Positions 35,138 through 55,908 of a stretch of 64,000 bases of DNA are shown piece after piece. The stretch is from positions 1-64,000 of the forward strand of contig QBVD01000065.1 in the NCBI GenBank assembly GCA_003058525.1, written 5' to 3'. Every line of letters starts with the position of its first letter. The first letter of the stretch is position 1. A program made the position numbers and the translations under genes. The notes under the pieces were generated by a model, which did no database searches, was not told the origin of the DNA, and saw nothing but the letters and a program-made list of their open reading frames with translations. This stretch comes from a gamma proteobacterium symbiont of Ctena orbiculata. Lineage in GTDB: Bacteria; Pseudomonadota; Gammaproteobacteria; Chromatiales; Chromatiaceae.

Positions 35138-36043
35138 CTATCCCCTCGAGTTGACAAGATCGATGACAGAACGGTTTCCGGCGGATGCCTTGACGATTGC
35201 TCGAATTGCACCATCAAGATTTGGGTAGCGGAACTTGAAGCCTGTTTCTGCAAGCCGTTCCGAGACGATGCACTGTCCCGATGTCATTGCCTGGGCACCT
35301 TCACCATACATCACTTGCAACAGTGCAGTCGGGACGCGTAATGAGGTAGGCCGGTTCAGCACTTTACCCAGGATGCGTGTGAACTCCAGATTGTTTACCG
35401 GATTGGGCGCGGCAAGATGATAGATGCCTTTGCAATTTCGGTTATCCAACGTCATCAGATAGGCGTTGACAAGATCATCGATATGGATCCAGGAGAAATG
35501 TTGCTCTCCGCTTGCGACGGGTCCACCCAAGCCCAACCGGAATGGCAGTAAAACCTGTTTCATCAAGCCGCCATTTGCGCCAAGTACCAGGGAGAGCCTG
35601 AACACGACGACACGCATACCGAGGGTTTCCGCCTCCCAGGCTGCGGATTCCCAGTCAAATGAGAGTTCACCCAGGAAATCTGCAGCATTGGCGACATCGT
35701 GCTCTGTATAGCGGCCATCTGAACTGAAGGCGCCCATGCCTGAGGTTGAGATGAAGGTCTTGGGCCGTTTAGAGGTTTGCGAGATTGCATCCACCAGCAT
35801 ACGCGTGGTTTCCACCCGGCTGGAGATGAGGGTGCGCTTGTAGCCAGATGTCCAACGACGGTTGATTGGCGCGCCGGCCAGGTTGATCACTGCATCGCAA
35901 CCATCAACGAGTGTCGAGATATGTTGGGTTCCGCCATTGAAATCACGTCGGCCGACAGGCACCACAGTATGCCCCTGATTGCGCAGCATGCGGCTAAGGT
36001 GGCTGCCGATAAATCCGGTTGATCCACTGATGGCGATGTTCAT
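35138..36043 (-). CDS. TIGR01777-family (SDR39U) NAD-dependent epimerase
   Basis: A 301-residue atypical short-chain dehydrogenase with the nucleotide-binding SGSTGFIGSHLSRML at its N-terminus and the family C-terminal DUF1731-like region (RVPTALLQVMYGEGAQAMTSGQCIVSERL). I start it at ATG 36043, preceded by GAGGAG; a longer frame to 36100 adds residues without family resemblance. It is the last gene of the left arm of the presumed light-regulated divergon, after the peroxidase and the small protein. Substrate unknown, and the family is a common member of LitR-type regulons. Confidence 0.88.
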   Translation of the reverse strand: MNIAISGSTGFIGSHLSRMLRNQGHTVVPVGRRDFNGGTQHISTLVDGCDAVINLAGAPINRRWTSGYKRTLISSRVETTRMLVDAISQTSKRPKTFISTSGMGAFSSDGRYTEHDVANAADFLGELSFDWESAAWEAETLGMRVVVFRLSLVLGANGGLMKQVLLPFRLGLGGPVASGEQHFSWIHIDDLVNAYLMTLDNRNCKGIYHLAAPNPVNNLEFTRILGKVLNRPTSLRVPTALLQVMYGEGAQAMTSGQCIVSERLAETGFKFRYPNLDGAIRAIVKASAGNRSVIDLVNSRG

Positions 36044-36134
36044 GTGTGACTCCTCACCATACCAATCACAAACGGCACAAGGCCCGGATAGCCGAGCCAT
36101 TGAGTGCGCTTCAGGAAATTTTCGCTGAGATGAT

Positions 36135-36725
36135 TCATAACAGGTCTTCGATTGCCTGGATCAGTTTCGAGCTCCCGGGCTTGACGAAGCTGTTGTAGCT
36201 TCCTACAAGTTTACCGTCACGATCGATAAGGTATTTGTGAAAGTTCCAGCGTGGCGGAGTGCCCGCTGCATCGGCCAATGCACGATAGAAGGGATCCGCA
36301 TCCTCACCCGTGACCCGTGACTTGGCATACATGGGAAACTGCACACCATAGGTGAGTCGGCAGAACTTTTTGATCTTTAGCTCGCTACCCGGTTCCTGGT
36401 TGCCGAAGTCGTTGGATGGAAAACCGAGAACCACCAGTCCGCGGTCGCGATAGCGTGAATAGGTCTTTTCCAATCCGTCATATTGATCTGTGAATGCGCA
36501 ACGGCTGGCGGTATTGACCACCAGCATCACCTTTCCCCGGTAGGTCTCACACAGGTTGTCGATATGCTTACTGTTGAGTTGCCGTTTCGAGTAACTGCTG
36601 TGTTCGTTACATATCAAACCAGTATCACTTTGTGCATGGCCGGCAAAAGGAATCAGCCACATAGCTGCAACAAGCGTCATGGTTAAGCCGGCGGGTAATT
36701 TTTGCATGAATGTATTTGAATCCAT
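36135..36725 (-). CDS. Exported glutathione peroxidase family protein
   Basis: A 196-residue thiol peroxidase with an N-terminal signal peptide (hydrophobic 13-30, cleavage near GHAQ). The three family motifs are present: NTASRCAF with the peroxidatic Cys, GFPSNDFGNQEP, and WNFHKYLID. The catalytic residue is cysteine, not selenocysteine. Export to the periplasm is unusual for the family but known. It is the middle gene of a three-gene minus-strand operon divergent from the lipid-modification operon, consistent with defence against photo-oxidative lipid peroxides. Confidence 0.9.
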   Translation of the reverse strand: MDSNTFMQKLPAGLTMTLVAAMWLIPFAGHAQSDTGLICNEHSSYSKRQLNSKHIDNLCETYRGKVMLVVNTASRCAFTDQYDGLEKTYSRYRDRGLVVLGFPSNDFGNQEPGSELKIKKFCRLTYGVQFPMYAKSRVTGEDADPFYRALADAAGTPPRWNFHKYLIDRDGKLVGSYNSFVKPGSSKLIQAIEDLL

Positions 36726-36780
36726 GATGTTTCACCTGGTGTGCGGCGGCAGGCGACTGCCTAGCCGCCCCGTAGGCTCA

Positions 36781-36945
36781 TCACCCCTCGTCGATACCCT
36801 CAGTGACGGGATTGTGAATGATTTCGTGCAACCGGCTCCCAGGCACAACAGAGTGGAGCACATTGGGGTCCTCCTTTTCGATCTGCTGCATCAGTTGATC
36901 GTAGCGGCGTTCAGTCTCAAGTATCTGCTTTTCGTAACCTGACAT
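36781..36945 (-). CDS. Small hypothetical protein (54 aa)
   Basis: A 54-residue polar protein with an N-terminal amphipathic helix (SGYEKQILETERRYDQLMQQIEKE) and no Cys, signal peptide or TM helix. The start at 36945 has a good AAGGAGAG ribosome site; an ATG 24 bases upstream in frame does not. It is the first gene of the left arm of the divergon, directly beside the operator-like repeats at 36964-37086. I do not recognise a family. Confidence 0.6.
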   Translation of the reverse strand: MSGYEKQILETERRYDQLMQQIEKEDPNVLHSVVPGSRLHEIIHNPVTEGIDEG

Positions 36946-36963
36946 CTCTCTCTCCTTTGTGTT

Positions 36964-37086
36964 GTACAAACTGGGCAGAAATGGCCTCAGTGATGTAAAT
37001 ATTAGACAAAAAATTGCAAATGTCTAGTACAAATATTTGATTATTTAGATTTAGGCGCTATATTTGGCAGTTATGTATAGTACAAA
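36964..37086. promoter_or_regulatory. Triple GTACAAA repeats in the divergent promoter region
   Basis: GTACAAA occurs at 36964-36970, 37027-37033 and 37080-37086, all in the same orientation. The last two are part of a longer match TGT(C/A)TAGTACAAA. CarH/LitR-type regulators recognise TnTACA-like half-sites in direct or inverted arrays, so these are candidate operators for the regulator at 43802-44692. Confidence 0.55.
37003..37026. promoter_or_regulatory. Inverted repeat TAGACA-N12-TGTCTA (candidate LitR box)
   Basis: A perfect 6-bp inverted repeat with a 12-bp spacer lies midway between the two divergent operons. The size and spacing match what I recall of LitR/PplR boxes (T(G/A)TACA-N12-TGTA-like), although the third base differs. 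It overlaps the region where both promoters should be. Confidence 0.6.
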
Positions 37087-37100
37087 AAGGCGAGGGCATA

Positions 37101-38357
37101 ATGAAAATAGCAGTGATCGGAAGCGGGATCAGTGGCTTGTCAGCGGCCTGGCTGTTGCATGACAAACACCAGGTAACACTGTTTGAAGCGGCGGACTATC
37201 TGGGCGGTCACACCCATACCGTGGATGTCACCCTGGAGGGTAAAACCCATCCGGTGGATACGGGATTTCTTGTCTACAACGATCTTACCTATCCCAATCT
37301 GATCAGGTTGTTCGATCACCTGGGAATCGAGACCCATGAAACGGAGATGTCATTCAGCGTCAGTGTGCCTGAGGCGAATCTCGAATGGGCGGGGGCCAGT
37401 CTGGGTACCCTGTTCGCTCAACGGCGAAATCTCGTACGTCTGAACTATTGGCGCATGTTGCAGGAGATTGTCCAATTCAACAACCGTGCCCAGATGCTGC
37501 TGGCCTGGTCCGAGCAACGACGGGTGACCCTGGGTCATCTGTTGGATGAGCATGGTTATTCGGAGTGGTTTCGTTCCTGGTATCTGTTGCCGATGGCGGC
37601 GGCCATCTGGTCCTCGACCCCGGCTGAGATCCTCGGCTTTCCCGCATCCACCTTCCTCAGGTTCTGTATCAATCACCGCTTGCTGCAGATTGAAGGACGG
37701 CCGCAGTGGCGCAGCCTGATCAGGGGCGGGAGATGTTATGTTGAAAAGCTTGCGAAACCCCTCGATATCCGGCTCAACACACCCGTCAAAAGCGTTAATA
37801 GAATGGGTGAAGGGGTAGAGGTGGAATCGGCGCTTGACCATTCTCTCTACGATGCGGTGATCTTCGCGACTCACGCACCCGATACCCTACGGATGCTCAA
37901 AGATGCCGATGCGCAGGAGAGGTTGCTTCTGGGTGCATTCACATACCAGCCCAATAGTGCGGTCCTCCATACTGACCGGCGTTTTTTACCGACCAGGGAA
38001 TCTCTCTGGTCAGCATGGAACTACCTTTCGCTTGGCGAAATGGATCAGTCGGTCTGTGTCTCCTATCTCCTCAACCGACTGCAGAGGCTGCCTTTCGAGA
38101 CGCCACTCATGATTACCCTGAACCCCGACAGGCGCTACATGCCGGAAAATCCGATTGCCACTTATCGATATGATCATCCGGTTTTCAACCAATCCGCAAT
38201 CGATGCCCAAACCCGGTTGAGTGAGATACAGGGCCGCAATCGCGCCTGGTTCTGCGGGGCCTGGTGTGGTTATGGGTTCCATGAGGATGGTCTTAAGTCG
38301 GCGCTGAGGATCATTGGCGACTTCGATGCGGAGGCACCATGGAAAGCAGTGCTCTAA
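37101..38357 (+). CDS. FAD-dependent amine-oxidase-like oxidoreductase (COG2907)
   Basis: A 418-residue flavoprotein with an N-terminal dinucleotide-binding motif IAVIGSGISGLSAAWLL, the second FAD motif LFEAADYLGGHTHT, and a C-terminal GAWCGYGFHEDGLKSAL FAD-contact segment. Related proteins sit beside DUF1365 and cyclopropane-synthase-like genes in lipid-modification operons (in Rhodobacter sphaeroides some have been linked to furan fatty acids). The first gene of the right arm, 75 bp downstream of the inverted repeat. It overlaps the DUF1365 gene by 19 bases. Confidence 0.9.
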   Translation: MKIAVIGSGISGLSAAWLLHDKHQVTLFEAADYLGGHTHTVDVTLEGKTHPVDTGFLVYNDLTYPNLIRLFDHLGIETHETEMSFSVSVPEANLEWAGASLGTLFAQRRNLVRLNYWRMLQEIVQFNNRAQMLLAWSEQRRVTLGHLLDEHGYSEWFRSWYLLPMAAAIWSSTPAEILGFPASTFLRFCINHRLLQIEGRPQWRSLIRGGRCYVEKLAKPLDIRLNTPVKSVNRMGEGVEVESALDHSLYDAVIFATHAPDTLRMLKDADAQERLLLGAFTYQPNSAVLHTDRRFLPTRESLWSAWNYLSLGEMDQSVCVSYLLNRLQRLPFETPLMITLNPDRRYMPENPIATYRYDHPVFNQSAIDAQTRLSEIQGRNRAWFCGAWCGYGFHEDGLKSALRIIGDFDAEAPWKAVL

Positions 38358-39097
38358 GCCGCATCGTTGTTGGCCGCGTTATGCATCGCCGCCGTTTACC
38401 CGTGGAGAACAGATTTGTCTATCCGGTCTTTTTTATTCTCATCAATCTTGAGCGGTTGGAAGGGCAGCGCCACTGGTTGTTGGGTATCAACCGACGGCGC
38501 CCCCTGGCGTTTCATTTCAAGGATTACGGGGATGGCGGGGATCCGCGCATCTGGGTGCGTGAGCGTCTGGTCGAATCCGGGATCGACGATTGCAATGGTG
38601 GACTTTGGCTACAGACCTTTCCAAGGGTTTTCGGTTATCTATTCAATCCGGTGAGTTTCTGGTATTGCCAGCGCAATGACGGCACTGTGGGTGCGATTGT
38701 TGCGGAGGTCAACAATACTTTCGGTGAACGCCACTGTTATGTGTTGCAACCCAGGCCGGGGGATGGTTCGTTCACCGCGGTTGAGGCCGTTAAGCGGCTC
38801 TATGTATCACCTTTCTATCCTGTCAGCGGTGGCTACAGATTTCACTTCAATGTCGATTTCGACGCACCCAGGGTGCGTATCGATTACTACGACCAGGGTC
38901 AGCTGCAATTGAATACCGCAATCTGGGGAAGATCGAAGCCGCTGACCGACATCAACCTGTTAACCGCCCTGTTGAAACAGCCTTTATTGACCCTGGGTGT
39001 CACGGTCCGCATCCATTGGCAGGCGCTGCGTTTGTGGCTGAAGGGGGTTTCACTGAGCAACAGAACACCATCATCGATCGAGGAGGCAACCAAGTGA
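38339..39097 (+). CDS. DUF1365 protein
   Basis: A 252-residue protein of the DUF1365 family, which usually lies between an FAD oxidoreductase and a cyclopropane fatty-acyl synthase. The markers VMHRRRLPVENRFVYPVFF, FGYLFNPVSFWYC and NTFGERHCYVL with PFYPVSGGYRFHF are visible. No signal peptide. Function unproven; location in the operon supports a role in modifying unsaturated fatty-acyl chains. Overlaps the genes on both sides. Confidence 0.9.
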   Translation: MESSALSRIVVGRVMHRRRLPVENRFVYPVFFILINLERLEGQRHWLLGINRRRPLAFHFKDYGDGGDPRIWVRERLVESGIDDCNGGLWLQTFPRVFGYLFNPVSFWYCQRNDGTVGAIVAEVNNTFGERHCYVLQPRPGDGSFTAVEAVKRLYVSPFYPVSGGYRFHFNVDFDAPRVRIDYYDQGQLQLNTAIWGRSKPLTDINLLTALLKQPLLTLGVTVRIHWQALRLWLKGVSLSNRTPSSIEEATK

Positions 39098-40302
39098 ACA
39101 GTATGACGACCGTCCTGGATGCACAGGCGCTACCCTGGCAGGTCAGGCCCCTTATCTCTGTGCTAAGCGGGATCCACGCAGGTACGCTGACACTGACCAC
39201 TCCGGAGGGCTATCAGCTGAATTTCGGTGACGGCAGTGCGCCACATGCCGATCTACAGTTGGAGACCTGGTCATCATTGAGACGTATCTTCCGCGGGGGC
39301 GATGTAGGACTGGCTGAATGCTTCCGGGATGGTGAAGTGACCAGCAGTAACCTGACCTTGTTGTTGCGCTTCGCGCTATGCAATCAATCCGCCTTGATAA
39401 AGGCATTTAAGCGCAATCGGTTGTTGAACCTCTTGTATCGCATGCGTCATCTGCTGCGACCCAACAGCAAACGGGGAAGTTCGCAAAATATCGAGGCCCA
39501 TTACGATTTGGGCAATGATTTCTACCGGCTTTGGCTGGACGACTCCATGACCTACTCCAGTGCCCGCTTTGACGATGATCTGCATGGTGATCTGCAACAG
39601 GCCCAGGCAGTCAAATACCGACGCATGATCGAGATGGCGGGCGCCACCCGTGGCAGCCGCGTACTGGAGATCGGTTGTGGCTGGGGCGGATTTGCCGATT
39701 ACGCGGCGAGACAGGGAATTACGATTGATGGTGTCACCCTTTCGCCTAGTCAGCTCAGCTATGCCCGTGATCGTATATTTGAGGCAGGATTGCAAAATCA
39801 GGTGAGTTTGTCACTCAAGGACTATCGTGCGCTTAGCGGCAATTATGATCATATTGTCTCCATCGAGATGTTCGAGGCGGTGGGGGAGGCCTATTGGGAA
39901 TGCTATTTCAGAAAGCTTAATGAGCTTTTGAACACGGGCGGCAGGGCTGTGATTCAAACCATTGTCATTCGCAATGACCTGTTTGATCGTTATCGCCGCA
40001 GGAGTGACTTCATCCAGCAGTTTATATTTCCCGGTGGGATGCTCCCATCTCCAGGGTGCTTGCATGATCTTGCACGAGACCACGGTTTCAAAATAGTCGC
40101 AAAGGAGTGCTTTGGCGCTGACTATGCAGAGACCTTGCGACGCTGGCGGCAGAATTTTCAGGAAAAAAGGGAACAGGTCCTGGCGGCTGGTTTTGATATC
40201 TGTTTCGTACGTCTGTGGGAGTTCTATCTTGCCTATTGTGAAGCAGGTTTCGACGAAGCGCGGATAGATGTCATGCAGTGTGCATTGGTAAAGGTAGAGT
40301 AA
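39094..40302 (+). CDS. Cyclopropane-fatty-acyl-phospholipid synthase family methyltransferase
   Basis: A 402-residue SAM-dependent methyltransferase. N-terminal region with a sterol-carrier-like fold (about 30-110), then QNIEAHYDLGNDFYRLWLDDSMTYSSARF and the SAM motif VLEIGCGWGGFADYAAR; HIVSIEMFEAVGEAYWECYF and FIFPGGMLPS are CfaS hallmarks. It methylates acyl chains of phospholipids, giving cyclopropane, methylated or furan products depending on the subfamily. I start it at GTG 39094 (GGAGG eight bases upstream, GTGA overlap with the DUF1365 stop) rather than at the longer frame inside that gene. Confidence 0.9.
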   Translation: MNSMTTVLDAQALPWQVRPLISVLSGIHAGTLTLTTPEGYQLNFGDGSAPHADLQLETWSSLRRIFRGGDVGLAECFRDGEVTSSNLTLLLRFALCNQSALIKAFKRNRLLNLLYRMRHLLRPNSKRGSSQNIEAHYDLGNDFYRLWLDDSMTYSSARFDDDLHGDLQQAQAVKYRRMIEMAGATRGSRVLEIGCGWGGFADYAARQGITIDGVTLSPSQLSYARDRIFEAGLQNQVSLSLKDYRALSGNYDHIVSIEMFEAVGEAYWECYFRKLNELLNTGGRAVIQTIVIRNDLFDRYRRRSDFIQQFIFPGGMLPSPGCLHDLARDHGFKIVAKECFGADYAETLRRWRQNFQEKREQVLAAGFDICFVRLWEFYLAYCEAGFDEARIDVMQCALVKVE

Positions 40303-40304
40303 GC

Positions 40305-40832
40305 ATGAAAGCACTGCCGAAAGTCGTTGGGCCGCTTCTGTTACTTTGCCTTATATGGGGCGACGTCAACGCAAGGATCATTCCGCTGGCCGACTATCCA
40401 TCACTGCGGAGCGTGGGCAGCGGTGTTTTGAACTGGTGGGGCATCAGGGTCTACAAGGCAACCCTTTATGCGCCACAGGGAGAATACCGTCCGAACATGC
40501 CGCATGCCCTGGAAATCGTCTACCGCATGGATATCAGCCGAGAACGGCTGGCGAAAACCTCGCTCAAACAGATCGAAAAGATCCGGGGTCATGCGTTGGC
40601 GGATAGAGACGCGGTACTCGACAAGTTCAAGACAGTTTTTTGCGATGTCTCCGCTGGGGACGCGATAGTGGGTATTCATCTGCCGGGTGAGGGCGCACGC
40701 TTCTACTGTCGGAAAGATTATCTCGGCCGGATCGATGATCCCGAACTGGCGGCGGCTTTTTTCGACATCTGGCTCAGTCCGGCAACAGCAAAGCCAAGGT
40801 TAAGGTCGGCGCTCCTGGGTGAAGGCCAATGA
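40305..40832 (+). CDS. Exported chalcone-isomerase-like protein
   Basis: A 175-residue protein with a signal peptide (hydrophobic 8-21, cleavage near VNA) and the chalcone-isomerase-like fold signature: GVLNWWGIRVYKATLYAP and ALEIVYRMDISRERLAKTSLKQIE. Bacterial members bind fatty acids or lipids; isomerase activity on flavonoids is not expected. Two bases separate it from the preceding stop, and ATGA couples it to the MFS gene. The ATG at 40305 gives the clean signal peptide. Confidence 0.85.
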   Translation: MKALPKVVGPLLLLCLIWGDVNARIIPLADYPSLRSVGSGVLNWWGIRVYKATLYAPQGEYRPNMPHALEIVYRMDISRERLAKTSLKQIEKIRGHALADRDAVLDKFKTVFCDVSAGDAIVGIHLPGEGARFYCRKDYLGRIDDPELAAAFFDIWLSPATAKPRLRSALLGEGQ

Positions 40833-42082
40833 CCTCGAGGCAACGATTCGCCTATGGTCTGCTGGGTGCCCCGATGGCGATGGCGGCGCTCCCTGTCTAC
40901 ATCCATACTCCCAAGTTGTATGGCGATGAACTGGGTTTGGGATTGGCGTTGACCGGGGCGATCCTGCTGGCTTCCCGCGCTCTGGATACCCTGCAAGACC
41001 CATGGTTGGGCAGGCTGGCCGATTTGATGCAGCGGCAGCACCGGGGATGGGCCGTGCTGGCCGGCGTGGCTGCGTCTGTTCTGGTGCTTGCCTATACGGC
41101 ACTGTTCAATCCGCCGGAGATGCTGCAGTGGCAGCTTGCGCTTTGGTTCGGTGTGGCCCTGGTACTTGTCTATACCGCCCATAGTGCACTCAATATCACC
41201 TATCTCGCCTGGGGTGCGAACGTCAGTCATGACAGCCACGAACGTACCCGACTGGTGGCATTTCGCGAGGGTTTCGGCCTGTTCGGTGTGATCCTTGCCA
41301 GTCTGCTCCCGATGCTCTTTTCGTCATGGTTTCAAGGTGTCAATCCCTGGCTGCCCTACAGTTTTGTATTTTCCCTGTTTTTACTGCTGGCGATCTGGCT
41401 GTTGCTGTATCGGTTTCCGCTGCCGACAAAACATGGATTGACTGCTCAGGGCCTGTTCGGTCCCTTGCGGCAATCACCCTTCCGCCGACTGGCGACACTC
41501 TTCCTGCTTAACGGTTTTGCAGTGGCGATCGCCGGGACGCTGGCACTCTTTTATATTGCTGATGTGCTGCAGCTGGAAGCCTACAGCGGTCTCTTTCTTG
41601 CCACCTACTTTATCAGCGGTGCGGTCTCTCTTCCTTTGTGGCTGAGACTCTCGCGCAGATTAGGCAAGAGTGTGGCATGGGCGGTCGGTACTTTGGTGGC
41701 CGTGGTCGGATTTGTCTGGGCAGTGCAGCTGGGCGCTGACGACATGCTGCCTTACCTGCTGATCTGTCTGCTTTCGGGTGCGGCGCTTGGCGCCGACCTT
41801 GCGCTACCGGCGGCGATAGCTGCCGACATCATCCCGCAACAGGATAGGGGCAACACCGGTGGCTACTTCGGTATCTGGAGCCTGATCAACAAAGGGGTAC
41901 TGGCACTTGCGGCAGGTTTGGGGCTGCCGCTGCTTGCGGGATTCGGCTACCAGCCTGGCGGCGGAGGGGGCTTGACCGCCCTTGCCATCCTGTATGCCGG
42001 TGTGCCTTGTCTTATCAAACTGATCTCAGCAGGTTTGCTGATGCGCTGGCGAAGATCCCTGGAGGTTCAATATGTCTTTTAA
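40829..42082 (+). CDS. MFS transporter (GPH sugar:cation symporter type)
   Basis: A 417-residue membrane protein with 12 hydrophobic segments. The N-terminal third has ALDTLQDPWLGRLADLMQRQHRG, the MFS loop 2-3 motif (DxxxGRxxDR-like), typical of the GPH/MelB-like group. Its membership in this operon makes a lipid precursor or lipid itself more likely than sugar as the cargo; the R. sphaeroides singlet-oxygen operon also carries a transporter of this class. Overlaps the DUF3833 gene by 11 bases. Confidence 0.85.
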   Translation: MTSRQRFAYGLLGAPMAMAALPVYIHTPKLYGDELGLGLALTGAILLASRALDTLQDPWLGRLADLMQRQHRGWAVLAGVAASVLVLAYTALFNPPEMLQWQLALWFGVALVLVYTAHSALNITYLAWGANVSHDSHERTRLVAFREGFGLFGVILASLLPMLFSSWFQGVNPWLPYSFVFSLFLLLAIWLLLYRFPLPTKHGLTAQGLFGPLRQSPFRRLATLFLLNGFAVAIAGTLALFYIADVLQLEAYSGLFLATYFISGAVSLPLWLRLSRRLGKSVAWAVGTLVAVVGFVWAVQLGADDMLPYLLICLLSGAALGADLALPAAIAADIIPQQDRGNTGGYFGIWSLINKGVLALAAGLGLPLLAGFGYQPGGGGGLTALAILYAGVPCLIKLISAGLLMRWRRSLEVQYVF

Positions 42083-42602
42083 GCCGATGGCACTGCTTAC
42101 AGTGGCGGTCTTGAGCGGGTGCGCGGGGGTTGATGTCAACCACTATGAAGATGAAAGGCCGGTATTGAAACTGGAGGAGTACTTCAATGGTACGGTCGAT
42201 GGCTGGGGGATGTTTCAGAATCGTGATGGTCGTGTGGTAAAACGTTTCAAGGTCGTTGTCGATGCCAGCTGGGAGGGGGATCAGGGTGTGCTGGATGAGC
42301 ATTTTACCTACAGTGACGGCACTAAACAGCAGCGCATCTGGCGCTTGACCAAGACCGGCGAGAATGACTACAACGGAATGGCGGATGATGTGATAGGCCG
42401 AGCAAGCGGTCGTGTTTCGGGGAATGCACTGCAATGGATCTACACGCTCAGTCTGCCGGTGGGAGAGAAGGTCTATCAGGTGCACTTCGACGACTGGATG
42501 TACCTGCAGGAGGATGATGTTCTGCTCAACCGATCCGTGATGCGTAAATTTGGATTCCGGCTGGGCGAAGTCCTGCTGTTTTTCAAGAGGCGCAATCAAT
42601 GA
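42072..42602 (+). CDS. DUF3833 lipoprotein
   Basis: A 176-residue lipoprotein: the lipobox LSGC is at residues 14-17, followed by LKLEEYFNGTVDGWGMFQNRDGRVVKRFKV and the FTYSDGTKQQRIWRL segment, as in the DUF3833 family. A lipocalin-like beta-barrel that could bind lipid is the likely fold (inference). GGAGG lies nine bases upstream of the ATG. Coupled by ATGA to the SDR gene. Confidence 0.88.
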   Translation: MSFKPMALLTVAVLSGCAGVDVNHYEDERPVLKLEEYFNGTVDGWGMFQNRDGRVVKRFKVVVDASWEGDQGVLDEHFTYSDGTKQQRIWRLTKTGENDYNGMADDVIGRASGRVSGNALQWIYTLSLPVGEKVYQVHFDDWMYLQEDDVLLNRSVMRKFGFRLGEVLLFFKRRNQ

Positions 42603-43366
42603 GTTTGAATCCACGGATAATCGATTGGCGCGGAAAAAGGGTCTGGATCATTGGCGCCAGCAGCGGCATTGGTGCTGCACTGGCGGCTGCAATGGGACAG
42701 CGTGGCGCCCGTCTGGCCGTCAGTGCCAGAAGAGAGGAGAGCCTGTGGGATATATCTGGCAGAGAGACGCTTGTGATGCCGCTTGATGTATCCCGGATGG
42801 AGTCACTGACCAGGGTGCGGGATGAACTGCTGAATCGTTGGGGAGGGATCGATATGGTCGTCTATTGTGCAGGGGTCTACACGCCCATGCGAAGCTGGGA
42901 GCTCGACTTGCCGACGGTCAGGCAGGGTCTCGATACGAACCTTCAGGGTGCCTACAATATGTTGGATGCGGTGTTGCCGCTCTATCTTCAGCAGGCGGGT
43001 GGCGCATTCTGTCTTGTCGCAAGCGTGGCAGGTTATACCGGACTGCCGAAGGCGCTGGCCTATGGTCCGGGCAAGGCGGCTTTGATCAACCTGGCGCAGG
43101 TCCTTTATACCGATCTTTCCGCACAGGGGATCGATGTCTATCTGGTCAATCCCGGTTTTGTGGAGACCCGCCTGACTGAGCAGAACGACTTCAAGATGCC
43201 GGCCCTGATCAGTGCGCAGCAGGCTGCTGCAGAGATTCTGAAAGGGTTGGGGCAGGGGCGATTCGAAATCCACTTTCCAAAACGTTTCACATACTGGATG
43301 AAACTGCTCGGTTGTCTGCCCGACAGGCTGAGATTCCCATTGTTGAAAAGGGCGGTGGGATCATGA
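42599..43366 (+). CDS. Short-chain dehydrogenase/reductase
   Basis: A 255-residue SDR with the NAD(P)-binding motif GASSGIGAALA, NAG-like YCAGVYTPM, and catalytic residues S-x12-Y-x3-K visible as SVAGYTG...AYGPGKAAL. The tail (IHFPKRFTYWMKLLGCLPDRLRFPLLKR) resembles membrane-associated acyl-group reductases. The substrate is presumably an acyl or lipid intermediate of the pathway encoded upstream. Coupled by ATGA to the next gene. Confidence 0.88.
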   Translation: MSLNPRIIDWRGKRVWIIGASSGIGAALAAAMGQRGARLAVSARREESLWDISGRETLVMPLDVSRMESLTRVRDELLNRWGGIDMVVYCAGVYTPMRSWELDLPTVRQGLDTNLQGAYNMLDAVLPLYLQQAGGAFCLVASVAGYTGLPKALAYGPGKAALINLAQVLYTDLSAQGIDVYLVNPGFVETRLTEQNDFKMPALISAQQAAAEILKGLGQGRFEIHFPKRFTYWMKLLGCLPDRLRFPLLKRAVGS

Positions 43367-43812
43367 AGATCGACAAACTGGTGGATTGGTATCAAAAGCT
43401 CTCACCATCATCCTTAAACAGCATCGATGAGTTCTATCATGAATCGGCAAGCTTTCAGGATCCATTCAATCATGTGCAAGGATCGGCGCAGATTGCCGCT
43501 CTCCTGCAGCACATGTTCGATACCACGGAGAACCCCGGTTTCATTGTGAAACAGATCCATATCGACGGTGATGTTATCTGGATCAGCTGGATCTTCTGTT
43601 GTGGCCTGCGAGGTAGAAAGGTCACCATCGAAGGGGCCTCGCAACTGGTATTATCGCAAGATGGACGGATCATCCGGCATCGCGACTACTGGGATGCCGC
43701 GGATCTTTACCAACAACTGCCGTTGATAGGTACAATGATCCGCATGTTGAAAAGAAGATTCAAGGTCAAGGCAGGATGCCATTCATCTGGAAAATTGTTG
43801 CATGAACGATAG
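43363..43812 (+). CDS. SnoaL/NTF2-like protein
   Basis: A 149-residue NTF2-like alpha+beta protein: YHESASFQDPFNHVQGSAQIAALLQHMF and the later SQDGRIIRHRDYWDAADLY match the SnoaL-like pattern. Small cone-shaped fold, possible ligand binding or isomerase; catalysis not demonstrable. I start it at ATG 43363, overlapping the SDR stop, rather than the longer frame inside the SDR. It overlaps the MerR gene by 11 bases. Confidence 0.85.
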   Translation: MKIDKLVDWYQKLSPSSLNSIDEFYHESASFQDPFNHVQGSAQIAALLQHMFDTTENPGFIVKQIHIDGDVIWISWIFCCGLRGRKVTIEGASQLVLSQDGRIIRHRDYWDAADLYQQLPLIGTMIRMLKRRFKVKAGCHSSGKLLHER

Positions 43813-44692
43813 TCATAGCATCAGCGAGGTCTCCCGAATTTCGGGTATTCCGAAAGATTTGCTGAGGATGTGGGAGAGACGCTACAACTATCCCAGGCCG
43901 GCACGCGATGACAACGGCGACCGAATCTATAGTGACGATGAGCTGAATAAGCTTACACTCATCAGGCAACTGGTGGACCAGGGACGCAGGCCCGGTAAAT
44001 TGATGGCACTGGATCTCGCAGAGTTGACGGTGTTGTTGAAGCAATCCAGTGTTGAATTCGATTTCGATCGTCTGATTGATCTTCTGAAGGCGGACCAAGC
44101 CGTCGATCTGCGCGACTGGTTGTATCAGCAACTTCAGCACCTTGGTCTGCGTGCCTTTATACACAGGGTGATAGTTCCCGCGAATCAGAAAGTCGGTGAA
44201 GCCTGGAGAGTGGGCGAATTGGCTATATACCAAGAGCATTTATACACTGAACTGATCAAGAATCTGGTGCGCCAATCACTGGCGGATTATCCCCGCACGG
44301 CTGGCAGACCGCGGGTTATGTTGACCACCCTTCCCGGTGAAATGCACAGCCTCGGTCTGCTGATGGTGGAGGGCCTGCTGAGGCTGGCTGGCGCAGAGGT
44401 GATTTCGTTCGGTATCGAAATGCCTTTTCGCGATATCAGGGAGGCTGCCCAGCGTCATCAGGTCGATGTGATAGGCCTCTCATTCAGCGGACACTTCAAA
44501 CTTGACGATGCCATCGTGATGTTGAGCGGCTTACGCAATATGATCGATGCGAAGACTGAAATCTGGGTCGGGGGAGCGGCCTTTGATGGTGCTGCTGAAC
44601 TTCCCGGTGGTATAGATCTGCTCGATGGCCTGCATGGTGTGGAACAGGCGCTGGCTTATTGGAATCGACGCTTGAATGATCCGGCTGTCTGA
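43802..44692 (+). CDS. B12-binding MerR-family regulator (LitR/CarH type)
   Basis: A 296-residue light-sensing repressor candidate. The N-terminal MerR helix-turn-helix (about 5-70: ISEVSRISGIPKDLLRMWERRY) is followed by a four-helix bundle and a cobalamin domain (about 180-290). Key residues known from CarH are kept: VGEAWRVGELAIYQEH (Trp and EH) near the upper face and the ExHxxG motif in PGEMHSLGL, which supplies the lower His ligand. In the dark such proteins bind DNA as adenosylcobalamin tetramers; light releases them. It is the last gene of the operon and would autoregulate. Confidence 0.9.
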   Translation: MNDSHSISEVSRISGIPKDLLRMWERRYNYPRPARDDNGDRIYSDDELNKLTLIRQLVDQGRRPGKLMALDLAELTVLLKQSSVEFDFDRLIDLLKADQAVDLRDWLYQQLQHLGLRAFIHRVIVPANQKVGEAWRVGELAIYQEHLYTELIKNLVRQSLADYPRTAGRPRVMLTTLPGEMHSLGLLMVEGLLRLAGAEVISFGIEMPFRDIREAAQRHQVDVIGLSFSGHFKLDDAIVMLSGLRNMIDAKTEIWVGGAAFDGAAELPGGIDLLDGLHGVEQALAYWNRRLNDPAV

Positions 44693-47742: not shown

Positions 47743-48332
47743 GTGCCGTTCCATCCGAAGATGCTGCCTGGGTAACTATCGAGACACCACTCTCCCCGAT
47801 CCGGTTGCAGAATTTCATTGGCGACTTGGAACGTCTGTTCCGCATCAATTCACTGCTCGAGTTCGAGCGATGGGAGTCTGTGGGCAATGATCGGATCTCC
47901 TTCGAAGCAATCAATCTCAGCAACGGTAAGCATGAGAAAGCCGAACTCAGCGTGGAGCATATCGATGGGGGCTTGCGGATCAACTACGATCGGCTGCTCA
48001 AAAGTTCCACCAGTATCCAGGTTGAGCCATCAATAACGAGTGGCAGCAGTCTCACTATTACCGACGACTACTCCGGTACCGAGGAGACAGAGCGGCAGCG
48101 GCGATTGGACGAGGTGGATCGCAGCCTCGGACAGTGGGGACGGGACCTGCACGGTTATCTGCGGTTGTGGCACCGCTGGTCCTGGCTGCCGCCCTGGCGT
48201 TGGTATATGCAACGGGTTTGGCAGCCGATGAAACCCTCGGCACGGCGTATCACACGTTGGATAGTTTGGATCACTTTCGCTGAGATGGCGGTCGTTCTGC
48301 TACTGATCGGGATTCTGGTAATAGAACAGTAG
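47739..48332 (+). CDS. Membrane-anchored protein of unknown function
   Basis: A 197-residue protein whose first part (VTIETPLSPIRLQNFIGDLERLFRINSLLEFERWE) looks like an SRPBCC-type lipid- or ligand-binding fold, although I cannot place it with certainty. The middle is Trp-rich (WHRWSWLPPWRWYMQRVW), and the C-terminus is one TM helix (about 172-195). It overlaps the stress gene by ATGA and is the last gene of the operon. Confidence 0.75.
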   Translation: MSAVPSEDAAWVTIETPLSPIRLQNFIGDLERLFRINSLLEFERWESVGNDRISFEAINLSNGKHEKAELSVEHIDGGLRINYDRLLKSSTSIQVEPSITSGSSLTITDDYSGTEETERQRRLDEVDRSLGQWGRDLHGYLRLWHRWSWLPPWRWYMQRVWQPMKPSARRITRWIVWITFAEMAVVLLLIGILVIEQ

Positions 48333-48677
48333 CTGCCGGTTGACGAGGACCCGGGATCAGATTCGAGACGGCGGAGGCAGTTGTGACTGACAACCCGGGG
48401 GATGATTCATCTGCAGGCTGGAAAAGGCTGATTAATGCACTCACTAGCTGACCGAAATCGCCAACCAGCCTATCCTGGATGATTCCATGCATACAGATCC
48501 GAGTTGAGTGCTCCGGCATGAAATCTGTGTAAATTTGAATTCAGTAACCCTATGTACAAATGGGTATAGTAAAATCCCTAATATCAGCCAAACTTCAATT
48601 GTTATGGGTTGTTATTTATCCGGTTTTTTAAGGAGAACGATAACCACAAGGAAAGATGGTCGATATTGGGGTCGGTG

Positions 48678-50196
48678 ATGCCTGATCACCGTTTGTTATT
48701 ACTATTCCTGTCATTTATGCTGCTTGCCCCGTCTTTGGGTGTGTGGTCCTCAGAACAGCAGATACCTCCATCGGTCATACTTGATGATGATTTCAGCTAT
48801 GCGAAATTGACTGACAAAACCTATGTCCTGCTTGATCCTCAGCGGCAGCTTGGAATTGAGGATGTCAGTTCCTCCGGACGACAAAGTGACTTTCGCTTGA
48901 AACATGGAAAGATCGGATTTACTGATGCGGCTGTTTGGATACGATTCTTATTGGAATCTCGTTTCACAACCAAACAAACTGTCATTCTTGAAGTCGACTT
49001 CCCATTGATCGATAAGATTGAATTCTACGAAATAGATGGGAAAGGGAATTACAGACCCCGTTTTGGCGGGGATACCATTCCTGCAACAGCATGCAACAAG
49101 CTTGTTAGTCAATCTTGTAGTTATCGGTGCTGTAGTCTTCTCTGGAAAACTACTTGATATAAGAAAATATAGTCATGCCTATTTTCTTGTTTTTCGGGTC
49201 GTAATAATTTTAGCCCTTTTGGGTATTGTGATAAGTATCGCAGGCCGTCTTGAGATTGCCAATCGAATTGCTTCGCTTTCCGGCATGGCGTTGGTGCCTA
49301 TCCTGATATCGGCGGCCATCGTAACCTATAGAAAGGGCAATTTTGCCGCTCGCTATTTTCTCGTTGCTTGGGGTGTATTTCTGATATTTGTTTTTATATC
49401 CGGGCTTTATTACTGGGGCATGCTTCCTTATGGATTCGTCACGGCACATGCCTTACAGATAGGTTCAGTATTTGAAGTGACCATGCTTGGCGTGGCTACG
49501 GCTGACCGTGTAAGGCTGTTGAACAAGGAGAAGGAGGAAGCCGACAGATTGGCGAACAAATACCTGGTATTACTGAACGAAAAGCTTGAGGATCTCGTCC
49601 ATGAAAGAACGGTGGAGCTGGAGGAAAGTAACCGGAAGCTACACGAATTGGCGACGCACGACAGTTTGACATTGCTCCTGAACCATAACGCGATTATTCA
49701 TGCACTGGAATCTGCGCTCAGCGCGGTTGAGAGGCATAGGCAGCCGCTCAGTATTGCTATGGTCGATATCGATCGTTTCAAACGGATTAATGATAGATTT
49801 GGTCATCAGGTTGGGGATGATGTTTTGGTTGCAATCGCCAATACCTTCACCAGCAGTCTGCGTGGTTACGATATTGCCGGTCGATACGGCGGCGAGGAAT
49901 TCCTGCTGATTTTACCGCAGACAAGCATGGAGGATGCCGGAGAATTGATTGAGCGATTGAGACAGAGCATTGCTGATTTGAGTTTTACCGGAACACAGGG
50001 TAAACGGGTGACAATCAGTGTCGGCATGATTGCGTATCTACACGGCATCAAAATGGATGCGGATGCAATGATCAGATGTGCCGATGATGCCCTGTATCGG
50101 GCCAAGGCGAACGGAAGAGACCGAATAGAGTGGGGAAACTGCACTACGATTCTTAGTAAGACCGGTTGCGCCGGGAATGAAGACGGTCAACAATGA
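48678..50196 (+). pseudogene. 7TMR-DISM GGDEF protein with internal deletion and frameshift
   Basis: The first frame (48678-49157) encodes a signal peptide and a 7TMR-DISMED2 extracellular domain (TDAAVWIRFLLES, VDFPLIDKIEFYEIDGKGNYRPRFGGDT), then runs out of family similarity. A second frame (in register by about 49080, to 50196) continues with HATSLLVNLVVIGAVVFSGKLLDIRKYS, the middle of the 7TM block, then an intact coiled coil and GGDEF domain (RYGGEEFLLILP, motif GGEEF). About 100-130 residues (end of DISMED2 and the first TM helices) appear to be missing at the junction. The second frame could still be made as a shorter 5-6 TM GGDEF protein. Confidence 0.75.
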
Positions 50197-50391
50197 TCCG
50201 TCCAGCAATTGTGTGACAGCGATTTACCAGTTTTGATCCTGCAACTGTTGCCGTGATGCGCCAAGCAGTGGTATGGGTTGAACAGGTGTGTGGATAGCAA
50301 AAACTGGTATAAGCTGGAAAGCCCGGTGCATTAGCCGGGCTTTTCAAGCGATTGTGCTGCGATTATATTATTTTAAAAGATCATCATTCGA
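50197..50391. other. Spacer after the GGDEF gene
   Basis: Holds the terminator at 50321-50344 and no gene. AT-rich downstream of the hairpin. Confidence 0.5.
50321..50344 (+). terminator. Terminator after the GGDEF gene
   Basis: GCCCGG/CCGGGC stem with an 8-base loop, preceded by AAA and followed by TTTT. It lies 125 bp past the stop of the GGDEF frame and might work in both directions. Confidence 0.75.
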
Positions 50392-50493
50392 TCAATCGTC
50401 ATCCTCCTCATCTTCACACACGCAAGGCGCACATACTTCAGGATTAAGCGTGTTTGGATCAAGGTATCGTTTGTGCTGACGGCCTTTGATCAT
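50392..50493 (-). CDS. Tiny Cys/acidic ORF (33 aa)
   Basis: A 33-codon frame whose product has a basic start (MIKGRQHKRY), then NPEVCAPCVC with three cysteines in CxxCxC, and an acidic tail of eight Glu/Asp residues (EDEEDDD with a preceding E). No ribosome site is visible. It lies 102 bp upstream... of no gene on its own strand except DUF535 on the far side, so it would be transcribed alone. It may be a metal-binding peptide, or chance. Confidence 0.3.
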   Translation of the reverse strand: MIKGRQHKRYLDPNTLNPEVCAPCVCEDEEDDD

Positions 50494-50595
50494 TTGCTGG
50501 TAATTTCAATATTGAAAAGCGCAGATGAGAGTATCGAATGGCGTTCATTTTAGACCTGTAAAAGCCATGACGGCTGTCTCTTTCATCCTTATAAT

Positions 50596-51582
50596 TCAAT
50601 CGGCATACTGAATGTCCGGCTTGCAATAATTTTGTTCACGCAATGCCCACGACCCAAGGACTGAAAGGCTCTGCTCAATCGCCTTTTCAAGTCTCTCCAA
50701 CAGGCTATAACGATTCCGATACATGGATCGCTTCCTTGAGACGATGTGTGTCAGCGGTTTTCGTACGGGGACCAGGGGTAATTCAAAAAAAGTGCCATTG
50801 CAGCGGATACCGCTACGATCCGACCAGACCTCATCATAGTTGAGACTCGGTTGGTTCTGTTTGTTTTTCAAGCAGTAAAAATGGTGTCTATGTTGCCTGT
50901 GTGACTCTGAGACGGCATATATTTTTTTTACGCCCAATGACCTGCACAGGGTTTGAAAAGCCTCGATCATTAGATCCCTCGGCCTGATGCCGTAAGTCCT
51001 TTTGGTCATATCACGATAGAGATCAGTGATACCATCCATTCTTCGACCTTGAATCGCGCCGGCAATGGCGCAGATTTGATTGACCTTATTTTTGTACAGC
51101 GAAAATGCCAGAGTGAAGACCCGTTCATGGCCGATAAATAGATTGAGTGTAATCATACCCTCTCTCATAAACAGATCATTTTTGTCAATTACAACCCTGA
51201 GCCTGGGATAGATATTGTCCGCATCCACAAGGGTACACTGATGGTTTGCCAGGTAGTCGATTTGATGTCTCAGCTCGGGTAGAGTCGTAAAATGATTGTA
51301 GAGATAATTAACTCGATCAGCTGTATCCCAACTGATACATTGGTAGGGCCAGAAGATGCTGGGAATGGCCTCGGGATGTGCCTCAATCAAATGCTTGAAA
51401 TGAGACAGCGTTTTTTGGTCCATGCGCAACATATCCTTGCTATTGAGGAGCGCCATGGCGAAATAGAGGCTTCGTCCCAGGAGCGGACCATACTTGAGGG
51501 GGCTTAGTTTTGTTCGCCGATGTTCTGGATCAACAGTAATCTTCGATGAAGACTGTAAGACAAGAGATAGCTGTTTGAACAT
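50596..51582 (-). CDS. DUF535 (VirK/YbjX) protein
   Basis: A 328-residue cytosolic protein of the DUF535 family: the conserved DYLANHQCTL, LTLNLFIGHERVFTLAFSLYK, ICAIAGAIQGRR and HRHHFYCLKNKQNQPSLNYDEVW blocks are visible. The Shigella/Salmonella VirK and E. coli YbjX relatives affect envelope or peptide resistance; function here unknown. Basic protein with no signal peptide. Encoded in a more AT-rich region than the flanks of the window. Confidence 0.85.
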   Translation of the reverse strand: MFKQLSLVLQSSSKITVDPEHRRTKLSPLKYGPLLGRSLYFAMALLNSKDMLRMDQKTLSHFKHLIEAHPEAIPSIFWPYQCISWDTADRVNYLYNHFTTLPELRHQIDYLANHQCTLVDADNIYPRLRVVIDKNDLFMREGMITLNLFIGHERVFTLAFSLYKNKVNQICAIAGAIQGRRMDGITDLYRDMTKRTYGIRPRDLMIEAFQTLCRSLGVKKIYAVSESHRQHRHHFYCLKNKQNQPSLNYDEVWSDRSGIRCNGTFFELPLVPVRKPLTHIVSRKRSMYRNRYSLLERLEKAIEQSLSVLGSWALREQNYCKPDIQYAD

Positions 51583-51935
51583 AATCGGATCCCTTAAAGC
51601 GCCTACTCACGCATCCCATCTTTATCTTATAACACGCCATGTCGGATCTGTTATACACTGCTGTCAATATTATTCGTTTTTTATGTGAGTAACTGCAAAA
51701 TACAATGTTTATTAACGTTTAATGAGTTCTTGTTACATTGCGGTAAATGATCCAGGAGTATGGCTGTATCTGGTGATTTCAAATTATGGAAGTGGATTGC
51801 TTTACTGTGCTGATGATTGAATATACATTGAATGTGGTTGGATTTGTGTAAATACGGAATCTCATAACTTAAAATAATTTTTAACCTCAATTCATATATA
51901 TAAAATAAACAGTGATCATATTAAGGAGGTCATAC
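51583..51935. other. AT-rich divergent spacer
   Basis: About 350 bp between the DUF535 gene and the rightward gene at 51936. Very AT-rich from 51660 to 51910. No gene; promoters for both sides should lie here. Confidence 0.5.
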
Positions 51936-52316
51936 ATGCCAGCTGCATCGATCAGGATGCGTGCAGCGCTTTCCTGCTACCTGTTAATTGGTGTTATTCA
52001 GTACGGCACCGTTTGCGCCATCGATCCCGGTTACATAGAAGCTGTTGAGGCGGATGTTGCGGAGTTCGCATCAAATGAGTTTCATCCACCTGCCAATTCA
52101 AGTTGGATGGGCAATGCGGATAGCGGTTCTGTGCAATTGATGGATTTGAATGGATTTTCAGCATATTTACAGGAAAAGTCTCCCGGTAGTCATATCTTCT
52201 ACAAAAACCTGCCAGGCAAATTCAAGGAACGATTACATAGGGACTATCTGACCACAGGTGACATCGATCGTATCAAAAAGGATATCTTCAAATACACACG
52301 CGAATTGAAAGATTAG
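51936..52316 (+). CDS. Exported hypothetical protein
   Basis: A 126-residue protein with a signal peptide (hydrophobic 10-25, cleavage near VCA). The mature region starts AIDPGYIEAVEADVAEFASNEFHPP and ends in KIKKDIFKYTRELKD-like basic/acidic helix. AAGGAGGT precedes the ATG at 51936. A family is not recognised, but it lies 48 bp before the LolA-like gene and probably shares its transcript. Confidence 0.75.
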   Translation: MPAASIRMRAALSCYLLIGVIQYGTVCAIDPGYIEAVEADVAEFASNEFHPPANSSWMGNADSGSVQLMDLNGFSAYLQEKSPGSHIFYKNLPGKFKERLHRDYLTTGDIDRIKKDIFKYTRELKD

Positions 52317-52363
52317 TCACGGACATATAATGAACTGTATAGGGCAAGTTAGAGGAATGGTGT

Positions 52364-53338
52364 ATGAAAAGAATGGATCTCTTTTTAAAAAACAGTGTTT
52401 ATTTATGCTTTTTTCTTTGCTGTGGATTGGAATCACAGGCAGATACAGGCCGAAACCTGGCCTATCCGTCTCCCGATGTGGAGATCGACGCGGCTGAAGT
52501 AGCTAAACAGGTCTATTTCGCCAACCACTTCTATGCCTTTGATAACTTCTCCATCAAACGCCGTGGTAGTACCATGAGCGTACTGGTCAACAAGTCGGCA
52601 AGCGGCAGTCCGATAACCACGGCTGTAGAGCGACATCTGAATAATAATTATGATGAGGATGATGCCATCCGCTCCCGTGATCTGGCGATCTTCCATTCCG
52701 GGAATCTGCGCGGTACCGGCATGCTGATCACAGAGTACAAGGATGAGACGAAGAGTCAAGATTACATGGTATGGCTTCCCAGATTACGCAAGATCAGACG
52801 CTTTGCCCAGCCACATCAGAAGGACGCCTGGGGTGGCAGTGTCTTTACCTTCGGCGATGTCACTCTGCGTAAACCCGGTGATGAAACACACGCGCTGTTG
52901 GGTAAGAAAAAGATGCGTACCTGTCTTGGTATGATGGATGAACTTGAGGGAAAGATGTTTCGCTATACAGGTCGTATGCCTGAACGTAGTTGCCGTCATT
53001 TGGACAGGGTAGTATACGGCCTGAAGAGTGCGACAAAATCCAAGAATTGGTGGTACGACTATCGAATCAGCTATGTAGATACGGAAAGTTTTGCCGATTA
53101 TCGTACCCTGTATTATAAAAATGACAAATTAATTAAAATTATTGACCGGGATTGGGGGCTGGTGAATGCGGAGGGAGAAGGTGATCCGAGAGCATTGTTC
53201 TGGAAATATTGGTACGGTATCGACCTGAGAACAGGTCAGCAGAGTCTGGCTGTGATACCGCGCAAGGTAGTTGATATGAACAGTGAACGACAAAACAGTT
53301 TCTGGACAGAGAGGACGTTGCGGAAAATCAAGCGATAG
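52364..53338 (+). CDS. Outer-membrane lipoprotein-sorting (LolA-like, PF17131) protein
   Basis: A 324-residue exported protein. It has a short signal peptide (about 8-26), then FSIKRRGSTM and MVWLPRLRKIRRFAQPHQKDAWGGSVFTFGDVTLRKPGDETHALLG, the outer-membrane lipoprotein-sorting-like signature, also resembling the YCF48/DUF1329 partners. GAGGAA precedes the ATG. Likely carries a lipid or protein across the periplasm; no transporter is adjacent. Confidence 0.85.
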   Translation: MKRMDLFLKNSVYLCFFLCCGLESQADTGRNLAYPSPDVEIDAAEVAKQVYFANHFYAFDNFSIKRRGSTMSVLVNKSASGSPITTAVERHLNNNYDEDDAIRSRDLAIFHSGNLRGTGMLITEYKDETKSQDYMVWLPRLRKIRRFAQPHQKDAWGGSVFTFGDVTLRKPGDETHALLGKKKMRTCLGMMDELEGKMFRYTGRMPERSCRHLDRVVYGLKSATKSKNWWYDYRISYVDTESFADYRTLYYKNDKLIKIIDRDWGLVNAEGEGDPRALFWKYWYGIDLRTGQQSLAVIPRKVVDMNSERQNSFWTERTLRKIKR

Positions 53339-53400
53339 CAACTTCATGAGTCATGGCTCCATAGATCCATTTTCTAATTCTCACAACCATATGATTGTTA

Positions 53401-55878: not shown

Positions 55879-55908
55879 TTCGCTAGATATCCACGAATGT
55901 TCCATCAC

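Follow-up and report, generated by a model that had tools for sequence, protein, structure and literature searches.

A Probable B12-Photoreceptor-Controlled Furan-Fatty-Acid Gene Cluster With Candidate Operators at a Divergent Promoter in a Ctena orbiculata Symbiont

Gene Organization

We analyzed a stretch of 64,000 nucleotides (hereafter the window; positions 1 to 64,000 of contig QBVD01000065.1, assembly GCA_003058525.1) from a gammaproteobacterial symbiont of Ctena orbiculata, a host whose symbionts are described in the published account as Ca. Thiodiazotropha-like (PMC6712303); we take the bacterium to be a lucinid symbiont of Ca. Thiodiazotropha type. Positions 35138–44692 hold a divergent unit of twelve genes, three leftward and nine tightly packed rightward, with neighbors in the right arm overlapping by 4–19 nucleotides (nt) or separated by gaps of 5 nt or less. 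A Cfa-type methyltransferase, an FAD desaturase-like protein and a DUF1365 protein are encoded together in the right arm, which ends in the gene of a CarH-type regulator. We read the unit as a probable furan-fatty-acid cluster controlled by a B12 photoreceptor, a reading to which we give a probability of about 0.7. An earlier sequence-only reading of this DNA had listed twelve genes with their families, and all twelve were found:

35138–36100, minus strand: SDR39U1-type epimerase (TIGR01777, DUF1731; 283.9 bits against a cut-off of 207.35), likely start ATG at 36043
36135–36725, minus strand: glutathione-peroxidase-like protein (GPx; GSHPx, PF00255), with a hydrophobic N-terminus and a catalytic-type Cys in ASRCAFT
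36781–36945, minus strand: small protein of 54 amino acids
37101–38357, plus strand: UfaD-like FAD amine-oxidase-like oxidoreductase, acyl desaturase by analogy
38339–39097, plus strand: UfaO-like DUF1365 protein (249.5 bits), O2-dependent furan-ring former by analogy
39094–40302, plus strand: UfaM-like S-adenosylmethionine methyltransferase of the CMAS family, start GTG at 39094 or ATG at 39103
40305–40832, plus strand: Chalcone_3 (chalcone isomerase-like) protein with a signal-peptide-like start
40829–42082, plus strand: MFS_2 transporter
42072–42602, plus strand: DUF3833 protein
42599–43366, plus strand: short-chain dehydrogenase (SDR)
43363–43812, plus strand: SnoaL_2-like protein
43802–44692, plus strand: CarH/class I LitR-type regulator with MerR helix-turn-helix, B12-binding_2 and B12-binding domains, the last gene of the right arm

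The Linked CarH-Type Regulator

The regulator gives Pfam matches to PF13411 (the MerR helix-turn-helix, 53.5 bits), PF02607 (29.6 bits) and PF02310 (50.6 bits), all above cut-off, and its best relatives in the Protein Data Bank are the CarH entries 3whp and 5c8d (3e-27). Both Wx9EH (W135), given as the defining motif of CarH and class I LitR proteins (PMC8156234), and ExHxxG (H182) are intact, which together with the MerR and the two B12 domains agrees, as far as sequence can tell, with the B12-type regulator that had been proposed. The residues GxxW, EH, GxxH and GxxxP, reported as a light-response signature (PMC11796333), are all readable as well, and the symbiont's own genome has a CobA/BtuR adenosyltransferase gene. 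CarH proteins are described as repressing in the dark and as being photolyzed irreversibly (PMC8156234); since the window protein is a B12-type regulator by sequence, it is probably light-responsive.

Three sets of loci served for comparison. The wider set consists of the best 80 of 585 confirmed loci in genome_contigs and is biased to near relatives; linkage was counted as a match within 9.5 kilobases (kb) of UfaO, and since the 80 include short records the counts are lower bounds. The class set has 64 loci (60 hand-picked and 4 others), with DUF1365 found in 115 of 370 genomes of the class, and the genus set has 8, comprising four of CarH type (L015–L018) and four with a short LOV protein (LOV type, L019–L022); L028 of the wider set is the same contig as L018. 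Within the genus, UfaO was found in nine of 21 genomes (the symbiont's own and 20 more), five of them with the CarH-type unit.

In 38 of the 80 wider loci, 8 of the 64 class loci and 4 of the 8 genus loci, UfaO has a regulator with both B12 motifs nearby, and the corresponding numbers for a LitR-type regulator without B12 motifs are 0, 4, and 4. The figure of 38 comes from a motif script that leaves uncounted L029, where the motifs were seen otherwise, and L080, where the gene is in pieces; by coverage the count is 40.

Candidate Enzymes for a Furan Fatty Acid

UfaM, UfaD, and UfaO are reported to suffice for a furan fatty acid made from 18:1 chains in Rhodobacter sphaeroides and Rhodopseudomonas palustris; UfaO contains DUF1365, and traits of all three families are named in the same account (PMC7380195). 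Single deletions of RSP1087, RSP1088, and RSP1089 are described there as leaving the R. sphaeroides fatty acid profile without detectable effect, and therefore a step can be assigned to the UfaM/D/O trio only, while the remaining operon genes may be accessory. The trio of the window likely points to this published pathway, its likeness to the R. sphaeroides enzymes resting on family descriptions, and a furan or methyl-branched acyl product, as first suggested from the sequence, still appears plausible.

The window methyltransferase reads MFEAVG where the cyclopropane synthase 5z9o has MFEHVG, and it scores far below the Cfa equivalog cut-offs. Ala takes the place of this His in 75 of the 78 wider loci that have a UfaM match (1 Arg, 2 unparsed) and in 54 of 62 in the class set (2 Ser, 6 unparsed). 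In Cfa this His helps to bind bicarbonate, and its replacement by Ala together with the low equivalog score supports a UfaM-like rather than a cyclopropane-forming role.

The Divergent Promoter and Its Boxes

The 155-base-pair (bp) gap between the two arms (36946–37100) contains three 12-bp boxes, TGTGTTGTACAA at 36958, TGTCTAGTACAA at 37021 and TGTATAGTACAA at 37074. Column identities below refer to an alignment of eight promoters (the window, L015–L018, and the Sedimenticola-type loci L029–L031), and the −35 and −10 elements were read by eye:

36958–36969, plus strand: candidate operator box 1, TGTGTTGTACAA, between the predicted leftward start and the small-protein ATG; column identity 0.78
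36999–37004, minus strand: predicted leftward −10, TAATAT, separated by 16 nt from its −35 (TAGACA); column identity 0.67
37021–37032, plus strand: candidate operator box 2, TGTCTAGTACAA, ending 4 nt before the rightward −35; column identity 0.89
37037–37042, plus strand: predicted rightward −35, TTGATT, 16 nt from the −10; column identity 0.78
37059–37064, plus strand: predicted rightward −10, TATATT, inside a conserved GCTAT stretch; identity 0.87
37074–37085, plus strand: candidate operator box 3, TGTATAGTACAA, between the predicted start and the UfaD ATG; column identity 0.98

Read on the minus strand, the TGTCTA of box 2 is TAGACA, which is the predicted leftward −35 (TAGACA-N16-TAATAT), and the predicted rightward promoter (TTGATT-N16-TATATT) is located between boxes 2 and 3. 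Box 3 is kept in all eight promoters (with one base changed, C for T, in L017), TGTCTAGTACA of box 2 in seven and TGTNNTGTACAA of box 1 in six, and the boxes lie at a nearly constant distance from the UfaD start. Mean column identity is 0.88 in the boxes vs. 0.52 in the remaining gap; the box mean is reached by 9 of 5000 random 12-mer triples. Perfect matches to TGTNTWGTACAA number three in the 64 kb of the window, all in this gap, and five in the whole genome. We propose the three boxes, which are new in this analysis, as candidate operators for both divergent promoters. Box cores also occur in all four LOV-type genus loci, ten in all vs. 0.6 expected, where the published N12 spacing is not matched.

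Other operator models were set aside. The N12 LitR consensus gave 45 matches vs. 36.9 expected at up to 3 mismatches, with as many in 12 of 100 shuffles, and tandem 11-bp repeats were rejected by eye against the description in PMC8156234.

Conservation and Loss of the Unit

All twelve genes recur with the order and orientation of the window in four other genomes of the genus (G009, G020, G019, and G005, corresponding to L015–L018), and eleven of the twelve proteins are 67–99% identical across these four. Because the gene order is kept there, the unit is not a chance arrangement; a lack of conserved order in relatives had been named beforehand as a refuting outcome, and the order was found to be conserved both in these genomes and in wider loci. 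The 54-amino-acid protein, for which a Pfam scan at E 0.1 gave no match, stands at the matching place in all four CarH-type genus loci (94–96% identical in G005 and G019) and has a relative (59%) in the Rhodocyclaceae record L085. The UfaM gene of G005, a metagenome-assembled genome, is broken across two frames (L018 7261–8462), which is either a real break or an assembly error.

Outside the genus, the Sedimenticola-type loci L029–L031, of which L030 belongs to the isolate Sedimenticola selenatireducens, have a complete right arm and the left arm in part. Linkage to UfaO in the 80 wider loci is found for UfaD in 79, UfaM in 78, SDR in 61, MFS and DUF3833 in 57 each, Chalcone_3 in 56, SnoaL in 52, GPx in 24, a TetR-type gene in 15, photolyase and the 54-amino-acid protein in 5 each, and SDR39U in 3. 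With these counts GPx, SnoaL, and chalcone isomerase are usual members, contrary to the view from the sequence alone that they are less usual parts. All eight genes from UfaD to SnoaL occur together in 43 of the 80 loci (order was not scored in this count) and in only 6 of the 64 class loci. The GPx-like protein of the window has FPSNDFG in place of the FPCNQFG of 3cmi, a yeast-type enzyme; its FPSNDF recurs in L091.

In none of the 15 wider loci with a TetR-type match was CarH found, and betaproteobacterial copies without CarH (L032 8040–8642, L035, L048) can have a divergent TetR-type gene. The TetR-type gene would be a further regulator on the same operon.

The unit has also been lost in one sister genome. 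In G015, a one-contig genome and near twin of G020 in rpoB, CarH is reduced to its last 31 residues at 68% identity (L200 3099–3191, G015:C1), and the flanking flavin-oxidoreductase and YbhB-like genes are kept. Approximately 100 bases past the carH remnant, the sequence becomes that found just beyond SDR39U in G019, and besides this remnant nothing of the unit was recognized at the locus. Both arms were removed by one or more deletions, and the unit is therefore dispensable in some lineages. Transposase-like open reading frames were noted by eye near the remnant.

Elsewhere in the window, positions 48000–60000 have a G+C of 0.44–0.50, below most of the window, and contain by eye a PAS-type and an ATPase-like open reading frame.

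Two Probable Photosensor Types Within One Genus

Four further genomes of the genus (G002, G007, G010, and G012; L019–L022) have a diverged operon whose UfaO is 41–42% identical to that of the window, in the order UfaD-UfaO-UfaM-MFS-DUF3833-Chalcone_3 with SDR-SnoaL divergent. A short LOV protein follows Chalcone_3 (L020 3942–4406), and genes for a photolyase and for a MerR protein that lacks B12 motifs are nearby; in L020, the only one of the four whose regulator was Pfam-scanned, no B12 domain was detected. The LOV protein has the Cys of DCRFLQG and matches short-LOV-type structures such as 3sw1 and 7a6p, which are P. putida LOV proteins, at 1e-50 or better. Besides these four genomes it is present in G008, which gave no UfaO match, while none of the CarH-type genomes has it (E up to 1e-20). 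Photolyase matches occur in 5 of 5 LOV genomes and 2 of 5 CarH-type genomes.

Several LOV genomes speak against a simple either/or of the two sensors, as they have other full-length CarH-like proteins elsewhere (30–37% identity), and so does G016, where a MerR gene adjoins a photolyase and neither LOV nor UfaO was found. Full-length CarH-like proteins of 36–37% were seen away from the lipid operon in G010:C1, G008:C401, and G007:C6.

In a tree built from rpoB-region DNA with 19 genomes (no match was obtained in G007, G012, G019, and G021, and the fragment G008 was left out), four CarH-type genomes group with G015 (98/100), and G002, G010, and G016 form a second clade (100/100). In a UfaD tree of 113 rows, one of them long, computed quickly and without mixture model, bootstrap or approximately unbiased test, the window type falls into a group of 47 rows (Shimodaira-Hasegawa-like approximate likelihood ratio test 99) together with Sedimenticola and betaproteobacteria, and this group has 37 of the 38 rows labeled CarH; five regulators (L141, L146, L181, L194, and L197) are labeled B12-less yet carry the motifs. 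The LOV type falls into a separate group of 25 rows (92) adjoining L194 (94), and B12 motifs are present in the regulator of L194, its nearest UfaD relative outside the genus. In this tree the two genus operons thus look non-sister, which suggests, without proving, separate gains. We consider it an even chance that one genus of clam symbionts has placed the same membrane-lipid output under two chemically different photoreceptor types, a B12-type CarH in one clade and a flavin LOV with a B12-less LitR-type protein in another, in non-sister operon lineages, with L194 suggesting that a LOV switch took the place of a B12 light switch while the lipid operon was otherwise conserved.

Proposed Mechanism and Alternatives

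From the genes and the promoter we infer repression, a light response, a product, roles for the accessory genes and a reset loop as follows. In the dark, CarH loaded with adenosylcobalamin (AdoCbl) would sit on the three TGTNTWGTACAA boxes and block both divergent promoters; in the light, breakage of the Co-C bond would take CarH off the DNA, and both arms would be transcribed. The UfaM-, UfaD-, and UfaO-like enzymes would then methylate, desaturate and oxidize unsaturated phospholipid chains to give a methylated furan fatty acid, which may quench singlet oxygen or radicals in the membrane, while the exported GPx would reduce lipid peroxides. As the last gene of the derepressed operon, carH would supply new repressor and thereby reset the dark state, a resupply that would be needed because B12 photolysis is irreversible.

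Several observations weigh against this proposal and bear on its alternatives. The B12 motif of the regulator reads ExHx2Gx41SxSx27GG where the published form is ExHx2Gx41SxV/Tx22-27GG, with Ser in place of Val/Thr and the rest fitting, and the NCBIfam CarH model NF052513 gives 128.6 bits against a cut-off of 400 bits, which therefore places the protein outside that equivalog without rejecting the domain class. The residue after the motif Trp is Arg in the window and was never His in the 50 operon-linked CarHs parsed. This absence of an upper His ligand, along with the lack of a FAD_binding_7 photolyase match in the symbiont's own genome, is what one would expect if CarH were a sensor of B12 (AdoCbl) or of redox state or oxygen, light being irrelevant to an endosymbiont of gill cells whose hosts bury in sediment. 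A LOV query of the same genome gave no match at 1e-20. In Thermus CarH, the His next to W131 is reported to take the upper-ligand position, and its exchange for Ala to leave the protein mostly tetrameric in light, with an earlier report to the contrary (PMC10442372). The CtMerR protein, however, with Arg at that position, is described as still dissociating from a tetramer into monomers under light (PMC11796333), and we rejected the missing His as a disproof of light sensing for this reason. Light sensing by the window CarH is plausible but would call for a release mechanism like that of CtMerR. The short LOV protein beside the corresponding operon of the sister clade, and the reported light induction of the Pseudomonas counterpart (ufaM 25-33 fold; PMC9758184), also speak against a purely B12 or redox sensor, which we hold to be quite improbable. 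Only slightly less so is a trio product that is a methyl-branched or cyclopropane chain rather than a furan, with UfaD- and UfaO-like proteins that drifted to another reaction. It would be compatible with a likeness to UfaD and UfaO that is established at family level only; against it, UfaO is accompanied by UfaD in 79 and by UfaM in 78 of the 80 loci, and Ala in place of His in UfaM makes a plain cyclopropane synthase less likely.

At the promoter, the box pattern was defined on the very sites that it matches, after they had been seen, and the reversed pattern has 6 genome matches vs. 5; with one mismatch allowed, 5 of 100 window shuffles reach three matches. A genome-wide CarH regulon was rejected because the box is not enriched, and control therefore looks local. 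The boxes are spaced by 53 and 63 bp vs. the tandem 11-bp repeats of Thermus CarH, the Pseudomonas consensus fits loosely, with one two-mismatch site (37003–37026) overlapping box 2, and box cores stand upstream of UfaD in just 2 of the 34 further loci linked to CarH and in 1 of the 20 that lack it; on the first of these counts a universal operator for CarH-linked loci was rejected. The left arm raises a further difficulty. L030, whose left arm is approximately 5 kb away, still has the box-1-like TGTCCTGTACGA, and L031 has the 54-amino-acid gene and left arm in place but no box 1, so left-arm control is less sure than right-arm control. Taken with the linkage of SDR39U in only 3 of 80 loci, this would fit a CarH that controls the right arm only (or itself only) beside an independent GPx/SDR39U oxidative-stress unit, divergent by happenstance. 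We nevertheless find such a separation somewhat unlikely: in six of the eight promoters box 1 has the predicted leftward start on one side and the ATG on the other, in seven the predicted leftward −35 is covered by box 2, and the loss in G015 took both arms. In L030, with no adjacent left arm, TGTCTA is lost and GTACAA retained, which is what a role of TGTCTA in the leftward promoter would predict. A B12-photoreceptor-controlled furan-fatty-acid cluster is the reading that we retain.

If this reading is correct, B12 light sensing reaches beyond carotenoid genes to a furan-fatty-acid operon of many betaproteobacteria and some gammaproteobacteria, and the locus offers a compact two-way promoter to study as well as a within-genus comparison of two photosensor types with one output. 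It would also raise the questions of why chemosynthetic clam symbionts retain a light-type switch and how CarHs without a second His ligand release DNA.

Comparison With Known Systems

Thermus CarH and the CarH/LitR proteins of Myxococcus and Bacillus share with the window the domain order, Wx9EH, ExHxxG, and candidate operators around a sigma70-type promoter, but are described as serving carotenoid genes, whereas the window CarH is linked to a lipid operon (PMC8156234, PMC10442372). It also differs from Thermus CarH in the missing second His ligand and in its spaced 12-bp boxes. The RSP1091-1087 genes plus ufaM of R. sphaeroides and RPA2569-2571 of R. palustris share the UfaD, UfaO, and UfaM types with the window, where the three genes stand together as in R. 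palustris (PMC7380195). Loss of the anti-sigma factor ChrR is reported to increase furan fatty acid in R. sphaeroides, whereas the window has a linked MerR/B12 regulator (PMC7380195); a Pfam scan of the twelve genes and of three genes flanking them found no sigmaE/ChrR pair, a search that did not extend to sigma factors in the rest of the genome. The Chalcone_3, SnoaL, GPx, SDR39U, and 54-amino-acid genes are extras of the window relative to both organisms. The blue-light response of Vibrio cholerae shares a light-induced Cfa-type gene (VC1122) and the involvement of a MerR protein (VCA0056), but is described as acting by way of sigmaE/ChrR and of a MerR protein whose gene accompanies phr (PMC5241685).

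Closest in content is the pmlR1/pplR1 cluster of Pseudomonas, in which a LitR-family repressor, an SDR, an FAD oxidoreductase, UfaM and further genes form one operon (PMC9758184). Such a cluster is reported to be controlled in P. mendocina and P. putida by a class II LitR, without full B12 binding, and in one case a short LOV, with phrB in the cluster (PMC9758184), whereas the window regulator has both B12 domains and their motifs and no linked LOV or photolyase. The footprinted P. mendocina promoter P6650 (TTGACT-N16-TATGAT) is described as carrying its sites at the −35 and in the stretch from start to ATG (PMC9758184), and the window resembles it in having boxes at a −35 and between predicted start and ATG. 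The sequence-only reading had seen singlet-oxygen-type gene content under a different regulator; the linked B12-type regulator agrees with this, but LitR/CarH-family control itself was already published for Pseudomonas (PMC9758184). A literature search of titles and abstracts, covering few subscription journals, returned nothing on a B12-type CarH controlling this operon or on light sensing in this genus. The cluster is already known in kind through Pseudomonas and its parts are ordinary; the promoter architecture and the contrast of photosensors within one genus are the aspects worth following.

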